Source: Polytrichum commune
Taxonomy: Eukaryota; Streptophyta; Polytrichopsida; Polytrichales; Polytrichaceae
Direction: 5' to 3'
Assembly (NCBI GenBank): GCA_950295325.1
Contig: OX485805.1
Location: 20,447,501 to 20,511,500, forward strand
DNA: 64,000 nt
Made by a program: the position numbers and the translations under genes. Every line of letters begins with the position of its first letter. Positions within the stretch are counted from its first letter, which is position 1. This document shows positions 20,640-61,419 of the stretch, one piece after another. The notes under the pieces were generated by a model that was not told the origin of the DNA, did not search any database, and was given only the letters and a program-made list of their open reading frames with translations.

Positions 20640-23330
20640 GTCAAGTTTGGGTATGTGTATTTATTTATAGTGATGTTATGGAGTGGGTATGTATTGCTCT
20701 TGTAACCACTCTTGTGATGGTGATGAGGTGGTTTGCTTTCTAGCTAGTACTTTGGGAGTGTGTCTATGATGGGGTCAAATTTATAATGTTTCTTTCTCCT
20801 AGCTTCTAGGTGGAATCTATTGTGGCAAATGGTGAATTTGATGAGTTGTAGTGTGTGGGATGGCGTTGAAGTTATTGGTGGTGGGCTATCTTTGTGTGGG
20901 TTGATTATGTAGAGAATATATGGTCTAAATCAAGCATGCCATGTACATTGTGATAAGTTGCATGTGCATCTTAATATCTAGTCGGGAATTATATTGTCTT
21001 GTGGTTTATTGCAGTGGTGTCTTGCATTTGCTAGTGTGTAGCATCTAGTGTGTTTCCTTGATTAAAGTGTGTGGATGATATGATGGATTGCCATGTTGTG
21101 TCTTGCTATTCTTAGTCCTTTAATATATTTGTTGGTGCAGTGGGATAGTAAGTGTGGCCATGTGTCAATTTCATGTTTTGGGCATAGTGTAGAATTTGGA
21201 TTGGGATGAGAGGTTGGCCAACATTTTTTTGAATATAGTAATAAAAATAAAAATACGTATATATTAATTTATTTTAAATTGATTGTGAGCCCAAAATGGG
21301 CCCACATGTTTGTTTTAACTCTTGTAAACCATTACAAGTGATGTTTTAGTGTTTTATGATTATTTACAAAAATATAAAAAGAGTGAAGCTTGAAAGAAGA
21401 TAGGTTTAAGCATTAGGTTCATTTGGAGTGGATTGATTAAAAGTGTAGTAGTAAAAAGAAGCTCCGTAGTTGGTGAGCGTAGTAGGTAGAAACCCAAGGA
21501 TAGTTAAATGATTGAATTAGGACCTTTGGTGTTTGTTTTAGGAAAAGGGCTCAAGAGATAAGATGAGAGCCTACAAAGTAGGAGGAGATTTCGAAGGCTT
21601 ATCGTGAGCCTTGAGGGTGCTCACCTCCTCAAACTCACTATTTAAGACCTCGTTTTTCCCTCACTCCTCTTCTCTTTCCTTCGTGCCCCTTGGCTCCTCA
21701 CGTGTTATAAGTGTGGGTGCGTGGGAAGCAAGATAGGAGCACGTGTGTGTGCATGGGTGTAAGGTTAGGAGCCAATGCTAGTTGGCTTTGAAGAGGGCTT
21801 GACCTCTTGTTAGTAATAGTTGGGCGTGAATGATTTAAAGTTCAATTTATGGCTTTGTTTGAGTACTTGGATTTATATTGATTAGCCTTATACTTATGCG
21901 GATGTGCAAAGTATCTTAAGGGAACAACGTAGAATTGCGACCATATATTTTTTGGCAGTAGAAATATTATTGCATATTCATGTAAAGGACTTCATTACCT
22001 ATCCATGGATACCAAGAACTCATTTTTTGGACTTCATATGAATTTTTGAGAGCCAAAAAACCGAGACTATGTTCAAACTTCCAAAAACTAGTGAAAAAAT
22101 GCAAATTCAAAGGGAACAGCGTAGAATTGCGACCATATACTTTTTGGCAGTAGAAATATTATTGCATATTCATGTAGAGGACTTCATTACCTATCCATGG
22201 ATACCGAGAATTCATTTTTTGGACTTTATATGAATTTTTGAGAGCCAAAAAACCGAGACTATGTCCAAACTTCCAAAAAAATAGTGACACACTCTTATAG
22301 TTTTTGACTTATGATGTTTAGACTTAAAGTATTGGATTCATTAGGTAGGAAGGGGTGTGTGTAACTTTTGAATGTATTGGTGATTGACCATTGAGATAAG
22401 TGTTTTTAAACACTCGCATTCTTTTGGTTGAAATAATTATACATTGAAATATCAAGAAGGAGTTACTACGTGTCATTCTAACATTTTCCACTCGGGCTAA
22501 GACGAAATTAAGGGTGGTGAACTTTGGGTGACATTGATTTTTAAAAATAATCTAATATATAGTGGTTGCCTATGTGTTTTGCGTATCAAAATTTTAGTGT
22601 TTGCGTGATGTGTGCATTGGAGATGCCTTTTGTTTTCTAGAAGCGGTTTGATAGCTTTAGGTGGATATCTTGGTTGGAGATTCATTTGTCAACATACTTA
22701 AATTTTTTATGGTAGTTGCAAGGTCAAGTTTTTTGTGCTCTTTCTTTATATGTGTGTGTAGGTTTTGGATTGCTCTAGAGTGTGAACTTGTTGAAATTCC
22801 AATTAGCCAATATTACCAATACGGGGGTTGCATGCTATGTGAATGTAGGATGTGGGGGTGGATGTGTCTAGGGTGGCACAGTCATGGCAAGTTGATCTAC
22901 AATGTTGTCACTCATAATTCTAGTATGTACTCTAGCTTTTTGTATGGTAATTTCATGTGTGGACCATAATCTCGAGTGGACTATGGTTGATACGAAAATT
23001 TTGTCCAAGTGATGACTATGGGTGATGGGTGTTTGATGTGGTTATTTATAAGGTATACACTATCAAGACTATCCGTAAATATGAACATTCTTGTGGGTGA
23101 TTTTGTTGTGTTTCTAAGGCTACTAGGATGCCATACAAATATGCTTTGAGTATGTTTGGAGTTTGGGGAGTTTTTTTGCAATCCGGAGGCTGGAAAGTTT
23201 TTTGGATAAAGAATCTCACTAATGCATGAATGTTCAATAATGTGGATTGGTTTAAAAGAGGACTCTGGAAGTTTAGGCTTTTGAATCTCAACCTTTTGAA
23301 GCATTTGATTGTTGGATGCCATCCCCACAT
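20640..23330 (-). mobile_element. old, interrupted copy of the dual-endonuclease LINE family (3' part)
   Basis: The reverse strand at 20.65-21.22 kb reads blocks that line up with the C-terminus of the LINE at 31.3-33.5 kb: DTWPHLLSHC (there DTWIHVLLTC), LRIARHNMA (LRVKRHNKA), CTCNLSQCTWHA.FRPYIL (CTCSTQRCHCNARFRPDIL) and LQLIKFTICHNRF (IQFIEFTYCNDRF). At 22.98-23.33 kb it reads MFIFTDSLDSVYLINNHIKH, matching the RNase H block AFIFTDSLNVLYLLNTQIKH. About 1.25 kb of unrelated DNA (roughly 21.22-22.45 kb) splits the copy. It has many stops, and the endonuclease Asp and Glu are replaced (RPY, IKF), so it is dead and clearly older than the 31-37 kb copy. Confidence 0.8.
21918..22293. repeat. 192-bp tandem duplication
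   Basis: Two adjacent copies, 21918-22109 and 22110-about 22293. Both start AAGGGAACA(A/G)CGTAGAATTG and differ at only a few bases. The pair lies inside the foreign segment that splits the LINE copy. Confidence 0.9.
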
Positions 23331-24243
23331 AGATTATATCATTTGAAGGTGAATAGTTACTCCTTGAAAGTTCAAGAGATCCTTATGGCTTTCAAGTTGT
23401 TGTACATAGCCAGCCGTTCATATTAGTAGTCGAAACAAACTCATTTGTTGACCTTGGGAGGTCAGTAAAACTTGGTTAGGGCCATGTCCTACGTTTTTGA
23501 GGGGTACGGTGCCAGTCGCTTCCCGCTAGGTTGATTGGGAAGGGGTTGTCTTGTGAAGCCGAAGGTGATTGAAGCAATTGGCTCTTGCTTTGCTTTAGAG
23601 CTCGGCAATCTCAAAGGTGTTGCGTCGATTGCTAATTGATTGCAAGGAGCCGATTGATCTTATTTTGTGATGGACCTCAGAGATCGCACATGAATTGATT
23701 GCTAATCGGAGGAGTTGGTAGCCAAATAAAGTTGGAGTTGATTGAAAGAGCATTGATTGCTGTTCAGAGTTGATTGCAAATGCAGAGCAGTGATCGGGGA
23801 GATTTTTGGGTATCATAATCGGTTGAGATCCCAGTGCTTGCAAGTCCAACCGGTTAACATGTTGACATCCCCTGGGTTTCCTTTACTAAATTGGGGTATA
23901 TTCGTCTATAGATTCCTCTAAAATGATAGATGCTTTTCCTGCAGTCTTGAACTTCAACCGGTTATTTCTCAAACTCAACCAGTTCATCTGTAACTAACTG
24001 CCAGTTCTCCCCGATCACAGATTCAGAGTTGATTGAAGGAGCTCTCGAAGGAGCTCTCGAAGGAGTTGATTGCTCCTGAAGGTGCTCATTTTGTGAATTT
24101 TGGTGAGGCTCTTCGAATTCGATGAGGAGTTGCGCTTTGGAGGATTGGCACTTTCCAATTTGGCTCAGCTCGGTCGCGGAGGCCGAAGCCCGATCTAGAA
24201 GGTGAGCACACATTCATTGTTCGATGGCATTCTTTGGTAAAAC

Positions 24244-28345: not shown

Positions 28346-30039
28346 TTTTACATTATAATTACGGACATGTGTAGATCATTTCAACATATCATTTCCCAAT
28401 CTTTGTAGTTGTTGTTGTAGTAAGAAGTAATTTTTTGCATTATGATGACATTGAATGTTCTTAGTGGTGGATTCTTCTTTTTAAGCGGTATTACTCCTTT
28501 GGAAAGATGAATTCATAGAAGTGCAAAACTCAATTTCATGATTTTACAAACCAATTTAGCAATAGGTTCTACCAATTACATTGAAATCACGAACCAGGTT
28601 CACTACATAGACAACCAATTTAACTTGAACCTTCCACTAATTTCACTACATGTGAACAATTTCATGTTTGGTACCCATATTCACAACTTCACAAAATCAA
28701 TTTCATGAACCGTACAACTTTATTTCACATCACTCACGTGATGTGAACAATGTAGTTGGAACAGTACATCACTCACGTGGCCAAGTCTTTTCCAACAATC
28801 AATGTCACAACCACACTACACTCTCACATCCACGAGATTGGCCACTCCAACTACATTGGGTTTGTGTTGCTTGCTTTGATGTACATCAATCAAAGACCAT
28901 AATAATAATAATAACAACTTCGGTCTCCGAAGGAGACCGACGTGAATTAAGTGTCTGTTCGATCTACCTTCAATCCCAAGCCCACATGACAGTGTCGAGG
29001 TCACCTTCAAACCCTCAGCAACTTAGACGGTGTAACCCGCTGCTGACCGGTTTACATGGACACTACACTTATCTAAATTAACTTTTGAAGGTGTTTCCTC
29101 TTGGATAAACCTCTAAGGAGAAAGTAGCCTAAGCTTTCAAGCTTGTGTTCCCCGAAATCCTAATGTCGAGGTTAAGTGTTATGAATGAAGAAAGTGTTCT
29201 TTTGTAATCAATAACAACATTCTTCCATTCATTTATAAATCCTCAACCAAAGTTCACAATCACATTACTTTGAGAGTTTTCATTTAACCATTCATTGCAA
29301 TGCCTTCAAAGTGGAAGTTGACTACTTGATGGTCTTTAATTTCTTCTTTTCTCGAATGATGGCTTTGAAATCCTCTTAATGTCTTCATTCTTCTAAAGTT
29401 CCCTTTTGTCTGGTTTTCCTTTGTATTCTCTACTCATGAGAGTTTAGTTCTTCATTCTTGAATATCTCTAAATTCCTAGGAAGGATCTTCTCTAATCTTC
29501 CTATTCTCTTTAGTGCTTCCGTCTTGGATTCCTTACGCAATCTTCTTTGTCTTCACGATGAGCTTCGGATTTTGTCAATCTCTTAGCATCTTCACTTTTG
29601 ATATCTTGACATCTCCTTAGACCCAAAAGGTATCTTAGATCTTGGTTAGAAAGTTCGTTTAAACCTTTACTCCTCAAAAGGGCTTCAAACTTGCGGTCTT
29701 GGTCTCGGGCTTGCGGTCCTCTGGTCCCGCGGGCCCTCAGTCTCCAAATCTTGAAGAAAACTTTTAATGTCTTCAAGTCTTTTCTTGTAGTCCTTGATTT
29801 CGTAATCTCTTGAAAAGACCTTCAAATCCTAAAGTCCTCTCGGCCTCTGGTACCGTGGTCCTTCAGTCGCGCGGGCCCTCAGGTTTTAAGACCGGCGTCG
29901 CGCCTCCGCGATTCTTCGAACTCGTTCGTTGCGGATCTTAATTTAAAGACCGGCTCCGATCAATTCCCCGGACCTTCGGTCTCGTGGGCCTTCAAGGTCG
30001 CGGGCCTTCAACTCGAAGACTGGCGAAAACGAACTTGCG

Positions 30040-30176
30040 GACTTTCAATTCGAAAGCCGGCTTCGAGCAATCTTGCGGACCTTCAAATTAAGGCCGGCTT
30101 CGTGCAATCTTGCGGACCTTCAAATTAAGGCCGGCTTCGTGCAATCTTGCGGACCTTCAATCAAGGCCGGCTTCGA
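30040..30176. repeat. 37-bp tandem repeat, about 3.5 units
   Basis: TGCGGACCTTCAA starts at 30074, 30111 and 30148, each followed by AAGGCCGGCTTCG; degenerate units extend to the left. Confidence 0.85.
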
Positions 30177-30237
30177 TGACGCTCACGTAGGAATGTTGAA
30201 ATGAATAATGAGGTGCTATAGGCGTCCGTAGTGCCCC

Positions 30238-30246
30238 CTTTATATA
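30238..30246 (-). promoter_or_regulatory. TATA box-like TATATAAAG
   Basis: The reverse strand reads CCTATATAAAGGGGGCACTA, a near-ideal plant TATA box. Downstream lies the GC-rich repeat block, so if active it would transcribe toward 29 kb. No product recognised. Confidence 0.45.
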
Positions 30247-31269
30247 GGTTTTGAAATCTTATAATTGGTTGAATTAGCGGTTAGGTGTGGCCCCTAATGC
30301 CAAATGTCTAATTAGGCTAATTTTAGTCTGAATTAAGGCTGCAGTCTAAATTTAGGTCTGTCGGATCTATTTACAGAACTCACACGTGCTAAATATAGAT
30401 GTTAGTATGGAGAAGATTGGTTAGGTTCTTCTAATTTCCTAGATGTGCCTAGGTGTGTTCAGTTACCATTCATGAGCCATCCATCCCAAATCTCATCCTT
30501 TCATTGCTTAGATGGTTAAAGCGGTTAATGTCATCCAAGGGATGGAAATCCCTTGGCATTGTCTTTCATCCACACGCGTTAGTAAGTACGTGTCCACTCA
30601 TTGTTGGTTAACTACTAAGTGGTCACTTCCTATAGTCACTAAGTGCTTGTCTCTCATCCAAAAAGTGACTACATCATCACTAATTCCCCCTACCTACTAA
30701 TCCGGCCGTTCCCTAAGTACTAGGACGCGTTCCCACCGCTTGAAGGTCGTTCCCGATGGCATCCGGTCGTTCCCTAAGAACTAGGACGCGTTCCCGCCGC
30801 TTCCGTTCCCGGGCCACGTGGCCGACGTCTATTGCCTCTCCGTTCGCCTCCGTGGCTCCCTTGAGCCACGTCATAAATACCCGGCTATAGAGGGTCCTCA
30901 ACCAGGTCCTCGCTTCTACCTGCTCCCGGCCTTGACGAGCTGCAGTCGCTCCCCTTGCGACACCTGTCCCGGTCTTCTCTCTCTCTCGGCTGCTCTGTTT
31001 TCCATCTCGAGGTTGCTTGCTCCCTCTCGCCCCTCCAAACTCACCTTGTCTCCGAGGTCGCCTTCTCGGAGCCGTTTCATTCACCTTGGCTACACAGACA
31101 GAGGTATGAAGGAGAAGATCTACTCCCCCCTTTCGAGAGTAGACACTTTAGACACAAGAAACCATTAATGTAAACTACGCCTAATATAATACCCCTTGCC
31201 CCTTACCCTAACTTTTAAGTTCTGAGTTATGGGGGGTCTGGATTTTGGGGGAGTGGTTGGTGGTTTTCA

Positions 31270-31292
31270 ATTCTCCTTTTATGGAGGAGAAT
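31270..31292 (-). other. perfect 8-bp hairpin in the LINE 3' tail
   Basis: ATTCTCCT and AGGAGAAT pair around a 7-base loop, about 50 bases after the LINE stop codon. Such a 3' stem-loop could be the template mark recognised by the element's reverse transcriptase. Confidence 0.6.
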
Positions 31293-31340
31293 AGACATAG
31301 CATATTGTATTGCAATGGTGTTAATATTTTTGAAAGTATT

Positions 31341-33506
31341 TTAGATGGTGGCCATAGGTATTTTGAAGTTGGTCTCTAGTGCTTTCATAAATGGGATGTG
31401 GGAAGTCGCTCTGGCACCAGCAGTGATGATAATAAGTGGTTCGATTTTCCATCCTTTGGAAGCAATGCTAGCAATTAGTGGGCTGTATTTGTTATTTTTT
31501 GCTTCAATTGCTTCTGGGGAGAATCTGTCATTGCAGTATGTGAATTCAATGAATTGTATGGTAAGGTTAGGGTCGACATCGCTGGGAAGGGCATTTTGAT
31601 AGGGGAGTCCTTTAACACAGAGGATATCAGGTCTAAATCTTGCGTTGCAGTGACATCTTTGTGTACTACATGTGCAGGGGAGTAGCCAATTGGGGACTGT
31701 GTTTTCTTGGGGGTTGTTATTGAAGGTGCCAGCATTCATGAGAGTAAAGCATCGGGATTTTTCTGATGAGATTAGGAGCTTCCTAATTTCTCCGACTGCT
31801 TTGTTATGTCTTTTAACTCTAAGTGAGTGTATATGTTGGTGCTTACATGTAAGTAATACATGTATCCATGTATCTGGTTCATTTGAGTTGTATATGGGGC
31901 ACGTGATAGTGGGAAATCTTTGGTGGCCAAAAAACATTTGTTTTCTCGCATTACCCATGTAGGTTCCTGTGCGGAATTTGATGAGGCATGATTTTTGTTT
32001 GTGGGTGATAGCGGGATTTGTCCAGAATTCGTTCGACAACTCGTTGTCTATATCTATGTTTTTTGTCCATTTACAGGTGTTGGGGGTTTGTGTGGCCATG
32101 ATTGCTAGGTTCGTTTCCCTATCATATTTTTTAATTTGTTTTTCTAAGAATCTAACTGGGCCTTTGTCCAGAACATCTTCCATTGAGGCCCATACGTCTT
32201 TTTGGTAATAGTAAGGGGTGGCGTGGGCATGTTCGTATGGGTGGGCGGCAATTCTGTGCTCTAATTCTAATCCTTCTTTTGCTAGTTTGTCTGCTTTTTC
32301 ATTGCCGTCAATGTTGACGTGTGCTCTAACTTTGTATAGTGTAATTGGTTGTGTCATTTTTTGAAGAATTTTTACCATGGAGGCTAGTGTGGTTTGGTCT
32401 GGGTGACTATTATGAAGTGTGGGGTGTTTAATTTGAGTGTTAAGTAGGTATAATACATTTAGACTGTCTGTGAATATGAATGCGGGTTCGTTGGGATATT
32501 GTGTGTTGATGATGCTTAGTGTTTCGTGTATAGCAATCATTTCTGCTCGTAATATGTTTTGATGTCCATGTAATCTATTGGCGATGTTTAGCCCTTTGGG
32601 GCTGTAGATACCGTATCCAGCTCTTTCTCTTCTCCATTCCCCAGGGGCTATTTCTGTGGATTTCATAAAGGAGCCATCAGTATAGTAGCTGAATTGGGGG
32701 TGGAATTTTAGTGGTAGGTTCGTTTGGTAGTTTGGGAGTTGTGGGGTGAGGGTGTTATTGTTTGGGGGTATCTTTGGGTAGTTTGATTTAGACAATTTTT
32801 TACTAGAGTTCACTATGATGTTTGAAGGGGTGGGTGGTGCAATTTGGGTGTGGCTTTGTAATATTTGGAGATTGTCTGCTATGTCCTTTAGTAATTTCAT
32901 TTGTTCATAGGTGCCTATGTTATTGTTTTGGTGGTGGATACAAAATATTTGTAGGATAGACGGTTCTTTTCTTGTAATATTGAGTTCGGGGGGTATTGTG
33001 GGTTCTTCATATGCAATCGTATCGGCTGCAAAGTGGGCAATAATGTGTGTGTCCAGGAATGGACCTATGTGCGGGTTTGGGTTTTTGTACCAGTCGGTAT
33101 CCGGAGATATAAGTATAGTGATTGTATATGGATCATTTTGGGCCGCCATGCGAGCCCAGTGAATGGCTTGTTGTAAGTCTGTTGCGTTGTGGGGGTGAGC
33201 GTATCCTATTCCTTGCCATTTGTGGTCAAATGCTTTCCCTAAGGATCCAAATATTATGTCACGCGAGAATGGCGAGTAGAATTGGGTGAGTTGCGTGGGA
33301 CATGTCACTGGGGATGAGAAGTATGACTGGTTGATATTGAATGTGGTTATTAGGAGATCTAATATTGGGGTTGGTATTGTGTATTGGGCACGTTTGAGTG
33401 GGTCATTTTTCGGGATTCGGTATTTGTATCTTTGATATAACCAAACCATTTCGGTTTTGAAAGATTGGGTGGGCGGTTCTAGACCATGTGTGGTATTTTT
33501 TGCCAA
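31341..33506 (-). CDS. LINE C-terminal polyprotein: methyltransferase-like patch, RNase H, zinc motifs, RLE
   Basis: 721 codons open (the first codon is arbitrary; the frame is part of a longer polyprotein). Residues about 60-170 hold a patch with FSSPVTC, FYSPFSRDIIFGSLG, KWQGIGYAHPHN, AIHWARMAA, TILISPDTDWY. Residues 272-411 are an RNase H with all acidic positions: YYTDGS (D277), AEM (E322), FTDS (D347) and GNEKAD (D406), plus VRAH. Residues 536-568 have the C...H...C and RHN signature found upstream of the RLE in R2-like LINEs; 611-620 is CTC....CHC; RPD (D627), IEF (E654) and KNNKY (K670-K673) form the PD-(D/E)XK endonuclease. The frame ends with a stop at 31341. Because this long part is uninterrupted, the insertion is probably fairly recent. 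Confidence 0.8.
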   Translation of the reverse strand: MAKNTTHGLEPPTQSFKTEMVWLYQRYKYRIPKNDPLKRAQYTIPTPILDLLITTFNINQSYFSSPVTCPTQLTQFYSPFSRDIIFGSLGKAFDHKWQGIGYAHPHNATDLQQAIHWARMAAQNDPYTITILISPDTDWYKNPNPHIGPFLDTHIIAHFAADTIAYEEPTIPPELNITRKEPSILQIFCIHHQNNNIGTYEQMKLLKDIADNLQILQSHTQIAPPTPSNIIVNSSKKLSKSNYPKIPPNNNTLTPQLPNYQTNLPLKFHPQFSYYTDGSFMKSTEIAPGEWRRERAGYGIYSPKGLNIANRLHGHQNILRAEMIAIHETLSIINTQYPNEPAFIFTDSLNVLYLLNTQIKHPTLHNSHPDQTTLASMVKILQKMTQPITLYKVRAHVNIDGNEKADKLAKEGLELEHRIAAHPYEHAHATPYYYQKDVWASMEDVLDKGPVRFLEKQIKKYDRETNLAIMATQTPNTCKWTKNIDIDNELSNEFWTNPAITHKQKSCLIKFRTGTYMGNARKQMFFGHQRFPTITCPIYNSNEPDTWIHVLLTCKHQHIHSLRVKRHNKAVGEIRKLLISSEKSRCFTLMNAGTFNNNPQENTVPNWLLPCTCSTQRCHCNARFRPDILCVKGLPYQNALPSDVDPNLTIQFIEFTYCNDRFSPEAIEAKNNKYSPLIASIASKGWKIEPLIIITAGARATSHIPFMKALETNFKIPMATI

Positions 33507-33851
33507 TTGGTATTGTTTCTATAGCCACATTAGTCTGGTTTTCGGGATGGTGATGAGGTGCCTACCATTATCTTCATATATGTGAGCGATGTCAAATTGT
33601 ATTTGGATAGTATCGGAGTTGGTTTCGATGTCATTTTCTGGGTTACATTCATTAATAGAGATATGTGCTAGTGGGATTATTGTGGTAGGTATGACATATC
33701 TCGTGTCTCTTTGTTGTTCGGTGGAGAAGTAGGCATTAATAATGTTTGAGAAGCGTTTGTGTTGTCTTTCCGTGTAGTAGTGGGTAAGTAGGATGGTGTT
33801 GTGGTTGCATGTGTTGGCATCGCAATAGGGGTATAGGTCCCTTGGAGTTTG

Positions 33852-34304
33852 TCATTTGTTGTATGTGTGGTTATTTGTTGTAGTCCATTGACATAGGTAT
33901 GACGTGACTGTTCTTTTTATTCCGTTATGGTCGGTAGATTGTTTTTGTTTGTGATCAAGTATTTTGTATATGGGATATTGTCGGGGGTCCTTAAGTATGT
34001 TGTTGGGGGAGGGGGTAGAGGGGGGATGGAAGGGTATGGGGGGAGTCGGTAGGTGAGGTAGAATGTTGTGGTGTCTTAGTATATATTTGTCTTTGAGGGA
34101 TCTAGGTGGATGGTGTCGTTGGCATGGTAGGGGGCATTCGAGATTACAGAGAGGTTGGCAAAATAGTTGATTAGCGATGTTTAGAGCACTTTGGATGAGT
34201 TTGGAAGGGGTGGAGTGGTAGATTTTGAATTCATCTAGGTTCATTAGTGTGGTGTCATTAGGCATGGTGATTTGGTCTAGTGTTGTTATATTATGTATGA
34301 GCAA
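33852..34304 (-). pseudogene. LINE linker with chromodomain-like patch
   Basis: This piece joins the thumb to the methyltransferase-like patch. Near 33890-33960 it reads YPIYKILDHKQKQ followed by VTSYLCQWT, and beyond a stop, QTPRDLYPY. This order (Y-x-I-x-K-I-L-D-H ... Y-L-x-x-W ... D-L) is that of a chromodomain. A Cys-rich stretch (CQPLCNLECPLPCQRHH) precedes it near 34130. A stop interrupts the reading frame here. Confidence 0.55.
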
Positions 34305-34343
34305 TTTGTGTAATAGTTTAAGTAAGGTGTTGGGATTTAGACC

Positions 34344-36232
34344 CTATAGCATTTGTGCTTCTTGCATCCACGCGTTTTCGAGTGGAGATGGGTGTAGGAG
34401 GAAGTTGTTTATTGTACTTTTAAGGTGGACTCCGGCTTCATGTTTGAGCAGAAATAATGTTCTAGTGATAGGTGATCTAATACAGTGGTGGTATTTAATA
34501 CGGGTAATTTCTTTGGAACCTCCGTATTTGGCAAGTATAAATTGCGTTAGGCTGGTATAAATTTTGCCAATTCGGCCTTTATCGTTAAGGGCGTTTTGTA
34601 GTTGCTCTCCAATACACCGTAGGTAGGCATTTTGTAGTGAAAATGCTTCAATTCCAAATAGGTTGTGGGGGAGTTCTGTAGTAATATTAGATGTGCATTT
34701 GGGTATTTCGCATATTGTTTTATGGAGTGCGATGATCTTTTTGTCAAGTTTTTTTATGGCTGGTATGGAGTATGGTACTGTATAAAAGCTATATGCTATT
34801 CCAGCGCGTATGACTGTATCAGCCACGTTGATTTTTTGTTTCATAGTAGCTGGGCATGCTACGAGGGCTTGACATTGTTTGATTATTTTAGCTGTAGTGG
34901 TATTTATTTGTGTTTTCCACTTGAGTGATGGTGCAAGATTTATTCCTAGGTATGTGTAGGGTTCGTGTTGGTTTAGGACTGGTATAGGTTGGTTTCTATA
35001 GTTTATGTTGGTGGATTGGATTAGGGCCTTGAAGGTTGTGGGGTTACGTTTTGATTTGTTTGGGCATCCAGTTACTGCGCATTTTGGTATTCTTAGGTCC
35101 ATTCATGCCCATTCGCAAAATTTGTCTAGTTTATTTAATTGTGTTTGTAGTATCTCTAGTTTGTTGGCGATTGCTGCAAGGTCGTCTGCATATGCTGCTG
35201 ATGAGATTTTAACTCTAGACGTACCGAAAGTATATCCATTGTTTCCTTGTTGTAGCCATCTAAGTAGGGGTTCTAGAAATATGATGAATAAGTATGGGCT
35301 AAGGGTATCGCCTTGTATTTTACCTCTTTGGATGTGGATTGGTAGGGTTTTTCCGAAGTGTTCGCCAGTGAATATGGTTGAAGATTGTGAGTATATATGT
35401 TTCCTATGAGGTTTATTGAGTCATTGGGGTAACCCAAGTCTTTCATTATGGCTAAGAGTCTGGCGTGATCAATGGAGCCAAAAGCGTTTTTGAAGTCAAT
35501 GTAAAGAATGTATATATCTTGGTTTGTGAGTCTTGCGTCTTCAAGCGCTGCAATTAGTATTTTGATTTGTCTGGAGGTACTTCTTTCTGCTCTGAACCCT
35601 TCTTGGCTATCGTGTAGTATTTGGTATATTTCTCCGTATGCTGATAAGATAGAGGTTAGTGTATTTGTGTAAAGTTTATATATGGTGTTAGCTAGTGCAA
35701 TAGGTCTGTGATTTGTTAGTTGTGATGGGTTACCTTTTTTATATAATAAAACTGTTAGGCTAGTTTTCCATGATGCGGGAATTTGTTTTTGTTTATAGCA
35801 GTGCTTAAATAATAGGAAAAATAATTTGTAAAAGCGCGGAGGCATATTTTTTAGAATTGAGTTGGGAATCTTGTCTGGGCCTGGGGCTTTGTTATTACTT
35901 AGGTTTTTAAGACAGAAGTCGTAGGTTTCTTGATCAAAGTATATGTGTAAGGGGATTTGGGGTTCTCCTCGTTTGTCCATTGTGTATCCTTCTAAGTCGT
36001 GCCATGGGTATTGTCTGACTCCACATGTACAGTGTAGTGGGTGTGTATTTTGATGGTGGTATGTGGGGACTGTTGGGTGGTTACTGATAGATTGTTGCGC
36101 GTAAATTTCTGATGCAATGTCTTCAGGGTTAGTTAGTATATTATTTTTTCTATCAATGATGGAGTCAAGAGGTGAGGTTTCAGTGTTTTTGAAGACTTTA
36201 CGGGTTTTTTTTTTGGGGTTTTCTTCATACAT
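34344..36232 (-). pseudogene. LINE reverse transcriptase (broken by frame changes)
   Basis: 36232-35273 holds NNKAPGPDKIPNSILK, LTNHRPIALANTIYKL, SQEGFRAERSTSRQ and motif A LYIDFKNAFGSIDHARL (about 35465-35510). The frame then shifts near 35390; the next frame gives QGDTLSPYLF-like residues and the catalytic YADD at 35181-35192. A stop near 35103 precedes the thumb at 35102-34344 (YTYLGINLAPSLKWK; RAGIAYSFYTVPYS). An extra Cys motif, HCTCGVRQYPWHDLEGY, lies N-terminal to the palm near 36005. All seven RT blocks can be found, so the loss of function is recent. Confidence 0.85.
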
Positions 36233-36598
36233 TTGGCTGTATTTTGATACGGCTTTTAGAATGCAGTCTTTGGTGTATTTTGTGGCGATTTTCCTGGCTT
36301 CTTTATTTGCAATTTTTGCGATGACTGCTATGGTGTCAATCCATTCAGCAGGAGATGTTATTGTAGAGGGTGGGTGCGGGATGTTGACGTGTTGGTGATT
36401 TCGAATATCGTTTAGAATGGAGTGTGCTTGCCAGTGTGGGTCATGTTGTGCTATGTATATGGTTTTTTTGATGAGGTGATATGTGTTGAAGTGTCTTTTC
36501 CATTTTCTAGCTAGTTTGTGTGGTAGAAAACCACCTTGTTGTGATGTTCTATTTGTAAGGCTGGGTAATGGGTCTGCTTTGCAGGTTTTTTCAATTGT

Positions 36599-36982
36599 TT
36601 ATGAGATTTTGTTTATAATATAATCCAATGATGTACAGGCTTCTTGCCATTGATCAGATGTTAAGTGTTGGTGATTTTCTAGTAGTGTGGTAAGTGCTTT
36701 TAGTTGTGTAGTGTTTTCTTCAAAGAATGTTATGTTGAATTTTTCTAGGTTTTCTGGTGGTATCGGGTTTAGGATTCTAGTTGGTGAGGTGTTTGTAGGG
36801 GATAGAGATCTGGCTATAAGTGTGTTGTGCGGGATGTGTAATATGACTGGATAATGGTCTGAATTTAGATTCATGTTTATGTTTGTAGTGGAGATGAATT
36901 TGTTGTTGTCTGGAGAGTGAATGTAGAAGCCATCTATTAGGCTTGTTGATGTGTAGTTATAGCCTCCTTGCAAACATATCAT
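36599..36982 (-). pseudogene. LINE AP endonuclease, C-terminal end only
   Basis: The reverse strand reads TSTSLIDGFYI and, at about 36841-36868, NSDHYPVILHI. These are the last two conserved motifs of LINE-type AP endonucleases (S.ID..(Y/F)I and the catalytic SDH.PV). A stop lies four codons upstream of the first Met, and no further APE motif follows, so the element's 5' truncation is placed here. Confidence 0.75.
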
Positions 36983-36989
36983 GATTGAT

Positions 36990-56665: not shown

Positions 56666-59600
56666 TCATATTTGTAGACGTGACTGACATCGAAGAACTA
56701 ATGGATGTTTTGGACGGATGATTATTGTCATACCGGGTTCTCCAATATCCGTGAGCATAGCTCCTTGCAACTCCGACCAATTGAAAGCATGCACAAGGGA
56801 GCCTAATGTAAAACAAAGGGCTCCCATGGCAAAGGCTTTTCCAGGGCAGATTCGCCTTCCAGCTCCGAAGCTAAGGAGGTGAAAATCATGGCCATATGCA
56901 TTCTCCTTTGTGCTCAAATTTAGATATCTATCTGGATTAAATGCGGAAGCATCTTTACCCCACATGGCCGGATCCCTATTGATGGCCCATAAATTGGCCA
57001 ACACAGTTGTGCCTGCAGGTATGTGATAGCCAGCAAGCATTGCGTCCTCTGTGTTGCAATGTGGGATGCCGAGTGCGCCTGGTGGGTGCAAGCGTAAAAC
57101 CTCCTTCACCACAGCCTACAAAGCATAAGAAAATTAATATATTTCAACACAATAAACATGGTACATACATGTTCCACATAACATTGTTTAGCCACTTGCT
57201 GAGGGGCATACATCCTGAGGCATTGCACTTGCAACCATAATAGGTTTGTCTATATCGAATCACAAAGAGAAACTTGATAAAGAAATCTCAAGCAGGAGAC
57301 ATATGATCTGCAATAATGATTCAGTGCAACCCATTTCACATTGAATTTAGATCCAAGAGCCTTCTTCCTTGCCAATATCAACAATGTGGTCCCAACTTTG
57401 GTTGCCCAAATTACTACAATCGTGCCCTTAACCCCTAAGTGCCCGAGCAACCATATATGGTTGATCAAAAATTTCGGCTCGTTTGTGTGTGGGCAGGTAA
57501 AATTCCTTTGACCGCGTAAATTTTTTTGGCGGGCAGTATGGAAGGGCAACTTTTGGATTGAGGCATTTTTGACCAAAAAGAGTAAATATTCGATTTTAGA
57601 GAGGGTCGGAAAGGCATATGTGTCCGTGATGTAGGGAATGGGTGGAGAAAGTGCTTTACTACTTCCTCAATGTTTCAGCTAATTGGACTATTGTACTTGT
57701 TTTTGACATCCAAAGAGTTCTCATTATTCATTTCTTTTGAAAAGTGTCGTAGTGGAAAGAGTAAAAAAAATCCGTATTTTTGACCGTTGAATATTAGTAT
57801 TCACAATTACCAATGTGAAGTAATTTGCAATATCAAATCGTCAAGTGTTAAAATAAAGAAAATGCATTTCAAGAATTGCAAGGAGGATTGCGAAATGATT
57901 GGGATAGCTCTATATGCATACATAGGGTCTTTGGAATCACATTTTTGTATTCTTTCACATGTTGGAGTTGTTCATGTCACCTCAAACTCCTAAAAACACT
58001 TATGAGCAAATCATACCAACATTGTGGGGAGGGGCGGCATACAAAAAAAAGAATGTATACATTTCTCCTGTTTGTATCTCACAACTCTTATGCAATCTCG
58101 GTCTCAAAATTGGTATGCATACTAATAAACAAGTTCTTTAAACATCTATACGGTTAGATTTTGGATAAAAGACAAATTCCTCCATTGGGGATTGTATTAA
58201 AGCCATGCACATATTTCTTAGGAAAAGTGCATTCCGAAAGGCTTGGGCACTTAGGGGTTAAACCCTAAGCTTCACCCTCGCTTATCTTTCTAACAAAAGG
58301 GTTGTCATAATATTGTCTTAACAATGTTAGATAGGTGTGACAAGTCACATTTGCATGATTGCTTTAAATAAAGGCAATAAATGTAACTGATATTTAAGTA
58401 AAACGGGACTAAGTCCAACTTCAAAATTATAACATGTTGAATTCTATCTTAGGATCCTACGATAGAATTGCATCATAAGATCCTTCAATAAATATGCAGA
58501 TTTAATTACAAAAATGTATAGTAGTTGTTTTGATAATGCTTTCAAAATTCAATGTTTATTTCTATAAATTTAACTTCAAAAAATGAGATATTTAAATTTC
58601 TCCATCCTAAAAAATAGTATATTATTTAAGTTAGCACTAAGGATTCACATGTCTTCCATAAAAAAATTGGTACATCAAAAGGGTATCATCAAAACCACCC
58701 ATCACCAAATGCCTATATTTTTAAAATATGTCCAAATTTACTTAAATACAAGATCTGTGAAATTTGGATCTAGAGAAGCAACACATAGAAAACCAATGTT
58801 CACAGTAGACAGAAAAGTTGAGCCTTCATATTCTAAGTTTGTGGAAGGTATGTGGCCCTATTGTGGGCAATACTAACTTCACAAACATTTTTGACCACAG
58901 TGATCTAGTGAGCTTGGGGATGTTCTCATTTCATTGGCGATTTAAATGAATCACTAAATTTATCAACAAAGTCCAAAGAGAACAAATAGATCCTCCCAAT
59001 TCACGTGTTTGATATCGATCAAGATCAACTGAACATAATTCTTGCCATGATGGACAACATGTTGAATGTTTGACTTGGATCCTTATTTGTAAATAATCAA
59101 TAAAAATGTAAGATATCTATATGCAATAGATTGGATGCTATCTAATTAAGTTCTTAAGACACTACCAACATATGAGACTTGTGCGATATATCCTGCGACA
59201 ATGAAAGAATATGCAAATCTACCTTTGTGATGAATTTATAGGGTTTCCAGCGACGTAGGTCAATTTGTTTTTTATTTTATTTTTTTCGAAGCTTGAAAAT
59301 AATGGCTTTTTGTTTTTGAGTAAGGTTTGAACCCACGTGCCTTCCTCCCAGCCTTTTGTTGGGTTTTTATCGATGCATGATGTGTTGCCCAAGTCTAACA
59401 TGCCTAGACATGATCTCTTTTAATTGTTTACCTGCAGATAGGGCAACTGGCTTGCCAAGTCCTGCTCAATGTGCTGACCCAACTCCAAATTCGAGTCTAA
59501 TTCTGATTGCAGTCTTTGCATAGCGCTGGGGTGACGTATGAGCTCCAGCATGGCCCACTCCAAAGTTGCCCCAATGGTGTCCGAGTTGGCCAGCATCAAC

Positions 59601-61372
59601 ATCTTCAACACATGACAAATATACACTTCAACAAATATTCAAATGTGATCTTTTGGAACCTGCTGCATCCTATATTATAGACAATCAATTAAATGTTCTA
59701 CTAGGTACCAGGTGTGGAGCTAAGGATGCATGTTACATGTTTTCAGTTTCCTCCAAAACTGTGGTGTCTTCTTCTTAATCGCAACTGGAATATATTGGCC
59801 ATAGCTTGTGAATGAGATATTCCTTCTGACAAAGAAATCCTCTATTTTGAAGGAGGACTTACAGAGAGCGGTTTAAGATAAACTCTGAGCCCCTAGGAGT
59901 TGCTGAACTTGATTACATGTGGCACACAAGATCTATGCAAGTTTGTGAGTAAGGTCTGTGCCCATATTGTGCGCACTTCCAACACCACAAACAAATTTGG
60001 CAACTGCAAATCATGAAAATTCTCATTTGAAGTTTCATGATTGGAGTTGACATATAAAAATTGTAAAAGGTCGTATCGATGTTCTTTCTCTCTTTGGACA
60101 ATCACATAGACCCTCCCAATTGTGTTTACTATCGAACCCAAAATGGTCTCTATGTTTTGAGCACACACTAGTCCAATGTCATTGTAGCCCATCTTTTTAG
60201 TATCTCCTCTAAACTATGAGCCTTGACATATACCACTCAAATATAGGATGTTTGTTTAAGACAATCGACCACATAAGGCCCCTCTTATATTGAAAGGTTT
60301 TCAGATCATCCTGGGGACATGCATAAAATGGAAATTTAGGACATTTGTGAAATAGGCTAGAATTCTAAGGTTGAGGACTCACTGAAGTGAGACCCTTGAC
60401 GGTCTCTTCGCTTAAGTTGCCTTCCTTCCTAATCTGCAACAGAGATTCCACAAAGTCAAACTCGGGTAGCTCAAGTGATCCGAGTTGCACCGGGTCCTCA
60501 GTTGCCTGTTTTCGATACCAGTTAAACAAAAGGGCCATCCTCTTATCCTTGTCTAGGGTGAAATCCCTCCATCTCTTCTCGAGCCCCTGCAGATCCAAAC
60601 ACCGGAGCACAGATAGGCAGGCGTCGCCAAATATGTTGGGAGCTCCAAAGAGGTAATCAAATTCTTCCACCATCTTTTTGAAATTTTGGGGTTGCAAATC
60701 TTCAGTTTTGGAACACTCGCAATGGACGAAGAGCTTGTTGAAGAGAGTGCGGCAGGCTTGGCGGATGGCGAACTCACTGACGACACTTCGGAAGTTCACG
60801 GGTTGCCCCGCGCTCACGAAACTTTCGATCACTTCCACCATCCTCGCCACTTCCTCCTTCCGTGCAGTGGTGGTGGTGGTCAATTTCCGGGGGCCAAAAA
60901 GCTCGGTCTTCATAATCTGGCGCAGCTCACGCACCTTGGGCGTGTAATGGCTCACAACCACATCGCAGTCATGCTCCGCTTGATTCAAGTACTTTGAGGT
61001 GGTGTACATGAGGCTATGAATTGGTCGAGATGCAAATTGGGCATCACTGACATAGAGAAGTTCCTTGGCCGTTTTTGCATCTGACACGACGATTGTGGGG
61101 ATTTTTCCCAAGTACACGCACATGATGTTGCCATAGCGGTTTGCGAGCTGTGCCAACAGTAAGTGTCCGCCTCTTCCCACAGAGAAGAGATTGCCAAAAA
61201 TTGGCCAAGGAAATGGACCTGGTGGCATTCTACGGTTCCGAAGTTTTGAGGTGCAAGCATAAGATATCGTAACCAGAAAGACAACTAAGACGGCACACCA
61301 TGCCTTGAGGGCTTGTGAGTCAAAGCATTCCATAACATGCACTGCCATATTGTCCATCATAGAAACACCCAT
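56666..61372 (-). CDS. cytochrome P450, A-type (CYP71-clan-like), three exons
   Basis: A haem-thiolate monooxygenase anchored in the ER membrane; substrate unknown. Exons on the minus strand: 61372-60383, 59602-59432, 57115-56666; introns of 780 and 2316 bp, both phase 0 with good borders (ACTTCA|GTGAGT...GAAG|ATGTTG; CTGCAG|GTAAAC...TTGTAG|GCTGTG). Starting from the ATG at 61372 gives 536 residues, normal for the family; the frame is open upstream to about 61417, beside an acceptor-like CTGTAG, so a further 5' exon cannot be excluded. Motifs: membrane segment WCAVLVVFLVTISYA, hinge MPPGPFPWPIFGN, I-helix LANSDTIGATLEW, K-helix KEVLRLHPP (ExxR), FNPDRYL (PERF) and haem loop FGAGRRICPG. The reading frame is intact. 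In the I-helix the usual (A/G)Gx(D/E)T(T/S) reads ANSDTI. PolyA signal at 56626. Confidence 0.92.
57432..58257. mobile_element. TTAA-flanked inverted-repeat element (piggyBac-like?), 826 bp
   Basis: Lies in the second intron of the P450 gene. Left end CCCCTAAGTGCCCGAGC, right end (reverse complement) CCCCTAAGTGCCCAAGC; TTAA stands at 57428-57431 and 58258-58261. TTAA targets and CC-starting inverted ends are piggyBac features. No transposase is encoded, so it would be non-autonomous. A Tourist-like origin is the alternative, since TAA/TTA are contained in the TTAA flanks. Confidence 0.55.
58258..59431. other. rest of the second P450 intron
   Basis: AT-rich. A segment near 58860-59030 (ACTTCACAAAC ... 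ATAGATCCTCCCAATT) resembles 59960-60140 in the first intron (ACACCACAAAC ... ATAGACCCTCCCAATT), so a repeat of unknown family entered both introns. Confidence 0.45.
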
Positions 61373-61419
61373 AAGTTGCTGCTCAACAATATGAGAATGC
61401 AGTCTTGAATCTGCCACCT

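Follow-up and report, generated by a model that had tools for sequence, protein, structure and literature searches.

We analyzed a 64,000-nucleotide window of the Polytrichum commune genome (contig OX485805.1, positions 20,447,501 to 20,511,500) and found on its minus strand a degraded copy of a long interspersed nuclear element (LINE). The element very probably belongs to the Dualen/RandI type, as an autonomous LINE of about 12 kb when complete that encodes two endonucleases, an apurinic/apyrimidinic endonuclease (APE) and a restriction-like endonuclease (RLE), and carries a PCIF1-like domain that most likely does not methylate in this plant lineage. Kinship with the Dualen/RandI-type elements had been proposed in a first-pass annotation of the window, and the architecture and the retention of both active sites support it. 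The features listed there were all found, but the PCIF1-like domain between the reverse transcriptase (RT) and RNase H had been overlooked. This group-wide domain is the part that looks new, while the element itself looks like a known kind in a new type of host.

Intact copies of the element

To place the window copy in its genomic context, we searched 408 Mb of the genome in seven large contigs with a 725-amino-acid (aa) frame from the window and found at least 62 full or nearly full matches with 87–100% identity (62 scored of 6,466 first-look candidates), a level far beyond chance. The first-pass annotation had suggested looking for full-length copies with one frame from APE to RLE, and such a frame, 2,625 aa measured from stop to stop with the first methionine at residue 50, was found uninterrupted at three loci (L039, L040 and L041; one each on contigs C1, C2 and C5, with L039 on C5) sharing pairwise identities of 99.3–99.6% over more than 10 kb. 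The long frame of L039 encodes, in order, a 2A-like motif (GDIEPNPGP, matching D-x-E-x-N-P-G-P, at residues 277–285), APE, RT, a provisional chromodomain-like fold, the PCIF1-like domain, RNase H (PF00075, E = 7.3e-13) and an R2-type zinc/RLE section. In both copies examined (C5 and C2), a separate 747-aa frame lies upstream. Pfam assigned no family, at E 10, to 492 aa of it counted from an internal methionine (residues 1–255 lay outside the scan), and the frame could encode an ORF1 protein of a novel kind.

The C5 copy measures 12.49 kb. Two of the three long copies are flanked by exact 12-bp target-site duplications, TCCATTCTTAAC and TTTGAATTAGGA, located just beyond a (TATC)n tail that is common to all three. 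The window copy, L010 and L012 end in (TTA)n, and L011 in an impure form of it, while no clear repeat was seen at the 3' ends of L015–L017. A 32-base pattern of the window subfamily's 3'-terminal hairpin matched the genome 209 times with at most three mismatches, the control pattern read backward giving no matches. The 3' flanks, read by eye, revealed no shared target and no site specificity.

The copy in the window

The window copy is visible as an A/C-rich coding run on the minus strand, from approximately 36994 to 31341, broken into seven open pieces. The motifs named in the first-pass annotation were located as claimed: NSDHYPVILHI in frame 36994–36599, RT and RNase H, and, in frame 33518–31341, RPD...IEF...KNNKY downstream of the C/H and RHN motifs. 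In Pfam scans, RVT_1 matched two frames split by a frameshift (4e-12 and 1.6e-9), and the last coding piece, frame 33518–31341, matched RNase H (7.9e-14) and PCIF1_WW (3.5e-9). The 3' end, formerly placed near 31190, in fact lies at about 28899, past a terminal hairpin and a (TTA)n tail. The features are as follows, with coordinates in the window:

28899..36979, minus strand: whole LINE copy, 5'-truncated, its 3' untranslated region (UTR) interrupted by a foreign insertion; from blastn and tblastn against intact copies, the 3' end from the hairpin and (TTA)n tail
36854..36979, minus strand: C-terminal remnant of APE (IDGF...NSDHYPV), the remainder lost through 5' truncation; tblastn to L039 residues 707–1236
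34665..35920, minus strand: RT and thumb (YADD), limits approximate, frameshift near 35390; RVT_1 matches and projection of L039 RT residues 1060–1477
33720..33965, minus strand: provisional chromodomain-like fold, limits approximate
32874..33620, minus strand: PCIF1/CAPAM-like methyltransferase-fold domain
33189..33200, minus strand: AHPH at the position of the PCIF1 catalytic NPPF, the column anchored by alignment to human PCIF1
32268..32693, minus strand: RNase H (PF00075, E = 7.9e-14)
31383..31901, minus strand: zinc (CCHC) motif, its second C being Y in this copy, RHN and RLE (PD...E...K)
28993..31096, strand unassigned: 2.1-kb insertion with TG...CA ends, foreign to the LINE; CTGTC flanks at 31101–31097 and 28992–28988
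28899..28944, minus strand: 3'-terminal hairpin, predicted at –16.2 kcal/mol, and (TTA)n tail

Homology to the intact copies starts at 36970–36979, corresponding to residue 707 of 2,625, and only about 40 last residues of APE are kept; as the homology starts just before the end of APE, the copy is 5'-truncated. With its stops, frameshift and truncation, it is dead. Nine fetched relatives of its subfamily (L010–L017 and L021) are 95.2–97.5% identical to it in DNA sequence over 3.9 kb. The 2.1-kb insertion in the 3' UTR, with its 5-bp CTGTC duplication, is probably a solo long terminal repeat (LTR).

Two endonucleases in one protein

The claim that APE and RLE belong to one LINE holds for the intact copies, which contain both, and not for the window copy taken alone, which shows no APE domain. 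Pfam alone did not recover the APE (EEP) family in L039 at E 1. An iterated profile, seeded with Pfam-annotated APEs of relatives and with L039, placed the domain at residues 504–748 with all seven catalytic residues (1.2e-44, a value inflated by L039 being among the seeds), and the L039 APE, used as a single query sequence, reached the APE of relative P0086 at 8.9e-12. As expected in the first-pass annotation, PD-(D/E)XK lies downstream of RT in the same protein, and the zinc/RHN/RLE section has the fold of R2.

We compared L039 with 120 listed relatives of the 163 matches of an RT search centered on this element. Aligned full segments numbered 79 for APE and 83 for RLE. The RLE residues D, E or D, and lysine were kept in 83 of 83 segments, the lysine standing at E+2 in 43 and on the following helix in 40, including the L039 family, never at both places and never at neither; this is a clean migration of a catalytic residue inside one LINE group. 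A first candidate for the lysine, L039 residue 2539, was rejected, as the column holds Q in 77 of the 83 segments and the true lysine is at E+2 or at residue 2536. In the 56 rows with both segments full, the seven APE residues were all present in 48 and the RLE set in 56. The domain order was the same in 76 of 76 rows with all five domains, L039 included.

The retention of both catalytic sets in 48 of the 56 rows indicates that both endonuclease sites are maintained across the group. One could still suppose that one endonuclease is a relic and a single enzyme makes both cuts, all the more since the other LINE groups covered by the cited papers carry a single endonuclease type (PMC3636483, PMC4640811; here and below, cited papers are represented by excerpts). 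Such a relic would sit poorly with the joint retention of the two sites and with the low ratio of nonsynonymous to synonymous substitutions (dN/dS) in the RLE, 0.07–0.11 in eight pairs against L039 (the fetched loci start after APE, which was thus outside the test), and we regard this alternative as doubtful.

A PCIF1-like domain in the LINE protein

In both the window copy and L039, a domain resembling PCIF1 lies between RT and RNase H. Residues 417–668 of human PCIF1 align to it, the methyltransferase-domain fold is present and the neighboring PCIF1 motifs [AS]SPL and FG[AS] are kept. The WW and helical (cap-binding) domains of PCIF1 were not detected, the alignment covering human residues 417–668 only. 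A genome search with PF12237 scored 150 of 697 candidates, all of them over the cut-off. A first, narrow PCIF1 profile matched 83 of the 121 rows and missed the proteins of Haematococcus; a later profile, with separately annotated seeds and reversed and shuffled controls, found the domain in those relatives too.

The PCIF1-like domain is under strong purifying selection. In the eight pairs against L039, dN/dS was 0.09–0.15 in its core and 0.07–0.14 in RNase H, compared with 0.14–0.29 in the linker after the core. For this test we took the window copy and 8 of 30 fetched loci, and removed one of them, L020, because of a frame slip.

The excerpts retrieved by our literature search did not name a PCIF1-like domain in Dualen, in a search that extended neither to Iyer et al. 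2016 nor to the first paper on Dualen; the one match pairing PCIF1 with non-LTR elements concerned, in the part seen, human LINE-1 and N6-methyladenosine. Either of two studies may have noticed the domain before: Kojima and Fujiwara 2005, said to have described Dualen/RandI elements in green algae, and Iyer et al. 2016, reportedly on eukaryotic adenine methylation.

Catalytic loop and function

In human PCIF1, NPPF forms the catalytic loop, and N553 and F556 have been mutated for inactive forms; cap binding is by the helical domain (PMC10544176). We aligned the loop in 112 segments, 104 from the RT set and 8 from the first homology search. NPPF or NPPY was found in none, SPPF in one (P0091), NPEY in 28 and HPPF in three, such that the canonical [DNS]PP[FYW] occurs in 1 of 112. 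The variant is NVPA in the Haematococcus proteins and AHPH in the window family. Among the 81 proteins of the first homology search, a pattern showed the loop in 48, with AHPH in 41 of these, and four further proteins have AHSH, AHLH (two) or AHPH; NPPY strings in five proteins of that search turned out to be located away from the motif place. A second family in the genome (L053, G000:C1:40948200-40950699) has an open frame of 2,919 aa with AHPPN at the loop place.

With the N and F of the loop gone, the domain most likely has no methylating activity in the window lineage and would act instead as a module for RNA handling or for structure, set between the polymerase and the endonuclease; strong selection combined with a replaced loop would make it a conserved RNA-handling module without the canonical chemistry. 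A reference title in PMC10544176 indicates that a catalytic-dead Drosophila PCIF1 acts in gene expression and fertility.

The NPEY form, spread over many separate branches of the RT tree, retains N, P and an aromatic residue, and the relatives having it may have kept or altered the methyltransferase chemistry. A more far-reaching scenario is that all dual-endonuclease LINEs stem from an ancestor that captured the PCIF1 catalytic domain and retained it between the polymerase and the endonuclease, with the NPEY form still being an RNA adenosine methyltransferase active on the element's own capped RNA, which it would mark or check before reverse transcription, and the moss type being a dead RNA reader. 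If true, LINEs would encode an RNA-modifying or modification-reading step of their own; we consider the scenario speculative and rather unlikely. Alternatively, the domain of the window family or that of the NPEY relatives could still methylate adenosine in the element's own RNA, next to the cap or internally, which would aid translation, recognition in cis or hiding from the host. The retained fold with its [AS]SPL and FG[AS] motifs, selection as strong as that on RNase H and the NPEY form would be in line with such activity. The near absence of canonical loops, the lack of N and of an aromatic residue in the window family, at sites whose change inactivates the human enzyme (PMC10544176), and the undetected cap-binding helical domain argue against it, and we find it unlikely.

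Several observations weigh against our preferred reading, an autonomous dual-endonuclease LINE with a non-methylating PCIF1-like domain. The non-catalytic interpretation depends on four residues, one relative does have SPPF and we know of no test of NPEY. When ten Haematococcus proteins were searched against PDB by themselves, PCIF1 was not reached at E 0.5, a miss outweighed, in our judgment, by the separately seeded and control-checked profile test. The domain being always present applies to the 120 listed of 163 RT matches of an element-centered search, and the eight dN/dS pairs all share L039 and are hence not independent. At the DNA level, the C5 5' end is fixed by its duplication alone, the C2 copy beginning about 0.5 kb further in; the C1 copy has no exact duplication of at least 7 bp, and the window copy has no convincing target-site duplication, just 7-bp candidates at chance level.

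Under the preferred reading, the element would move by target-primed reverse transcription. One endonuclease would nick the DNA strand used to prime cDNA synthesis, and the second strand could be cut by the other; RNase H would strip the template RNA, the 2A motif would release the N-terminal part of the long-frame protein, and the PCIF1-like domain would serve RNA handling or structure between polymerase and endonuclease.

Relationship to other LINEs

We placed the RT in a 77-row tree with two R2 sequences as root, leaving out P0160 (Pleodorina) and P0190 (Parachlorella), whose RT segments are at most 330 residues long. The placement among LINEs called for in the first-pass annotation was achieved in part: the RT groups with the Haematococcus dual-endonuclease proteins, in a tree with R2 as sole outgroup and no Chlamydomonas or Repbase reference. 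Because R2 is the sole outgroup, the tree cannot show the group as one clade against other LINEs, and the 75-row non-R2 clade is no evidence of it. Nine Haematococcus rows are nested inside a 27-row clade with a Shimodaira–Hasegawa-like approximate likelihood ratio (SH-aLRT) of 99. L039, whose terminal branch is long and whose composition is odd, joins P0082, P0083, P0116 and P0186 at a weakly supported fork (SH-aLRT 83).

This weak placement, and a group unity that the outgroup leaves uncheckable, would leave room for an independent lineage in which APE and RLE were joined separately from the chlorophyte Dualen. The nesting of the Haematococcus elements, the domain order and PCIF1-like domain common to both, and the 2A motif, found in 13 of the 120 listed relatives and in several of both, make such independence very unlikely. 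The idea that APE and RLE come from two adjacent elements, as a chimera or nested insertion, could draw on the broken window copy with its mere end of APE, but the uninterrupted frame in three loci on three contigs and the identical order in all five-domain rows rule it out for practical purposes.

Like the moss element, Dualen/RandI elements have APE and RLE in one element (PMC4640811, PMC3636483), RNase H (PMC4640811) and short non-A 3' repeats, (ATT)n and (CTATTT)n in RandI (PMC3747384) and (TTA)n and (TATC)n here. The moss element differs in sitting in a land plant and in having the separate upstream frame. In the excerpts available, descriptions of Dualen/RandI lack the PCIF1-like domain, though our profile finds it in the Haematococcus relatives. 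Many of the latter have a Josephin domain by precomputed Pfam annotation, whereas none was found in the moss long frame. Extra polyprotein domains are likewise annotated in P0116, P0186, P0089, P0185, P0107 and other relatives: DNA cytosine methyltransferase (two), ULP1 (two), OTU (one), Josephin or PHD. P0021, from an assembly labeled as the archaeon Nitrosocosmicus, is 54% identical to the window frame and has both the PCIF1 and the RNase H domain, which points to probable contamination of that assembly.

R2 shares the zinc/RHN/RLE fold and is the closest solved RT structure; its active-site lysine seems to be on the helix too. The moss element differs from R2 in its APE, RNase H, 2A motif, PCIF1-like domain and upstream frame, and in showing no site specificity in the flanks read by eye; the R2 clade has RLE as its only endonuclease, whereas here APE is present as well. 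PCIF1/CAPAM, the cap-specific adenosine N6-methyltransferase, has in common with the element domain the fold, the motifs [AS]SPLN and FGS.G and the position of the NPPF loop; in the element, the loop is replaced, the WW and helical domains are undetected and the domain is embedded in a LINE polyprotein. Captured methyltransferases are known in other retrotransposons, DAM in DIRS and DCM in Ty3/Gypsy and DIRS, and the excerpt states that transposon-encoded DNA methylases are not present in land plants (PMC6338049). The moss case resembles these in being a mobile element with a methyltransferase-related domain, but concerns a LINE, a land plant and another methyltransferase family with its catalytic motif replaced.

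Other features of the window

Another LINE of similar type, more distantly related, has left remnants on the minus strand at 20756–21187 and 22981–23382, with a match to the RLE region at 41% identity and an RNase H-like piece judged by eye. Pieces of a cytochrome P450 gene are found on the same strand at 60365–61417 and, by eye, at 56666–57115; the first has relatives of up to 97% identity and one distant match in cotton. A PsaD gene of the genome points to moss: leaving aside a 698-aa chain (9vfj), the structures it matches best are 8htu, 7ksq and 6l35, all from Physcomitrium. Rfam (at gathering thresholds) and tRNA scans of the window gave no matches.

Significance

The position of Dualen has been taken as a sign that APE-type LINEs arose by APE replacing RLE (PMC4640811). 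With young copies now known from a land plant that are intact and keep both active sites, it becomes possible to test how the two nucleases share the work. With the PCIF1-like domain, a fold known from mRNA cap methylation is built into the protein by which an entire LINE group replicates; the domain is strongly selected despite the changed catalytic loop, and offers a shared marker for spotting the dual-endonuclease group across eukaryotes. Should the domain prove to handle RNA that is capped or methylated, LINE replication would be linked to RNA modification.

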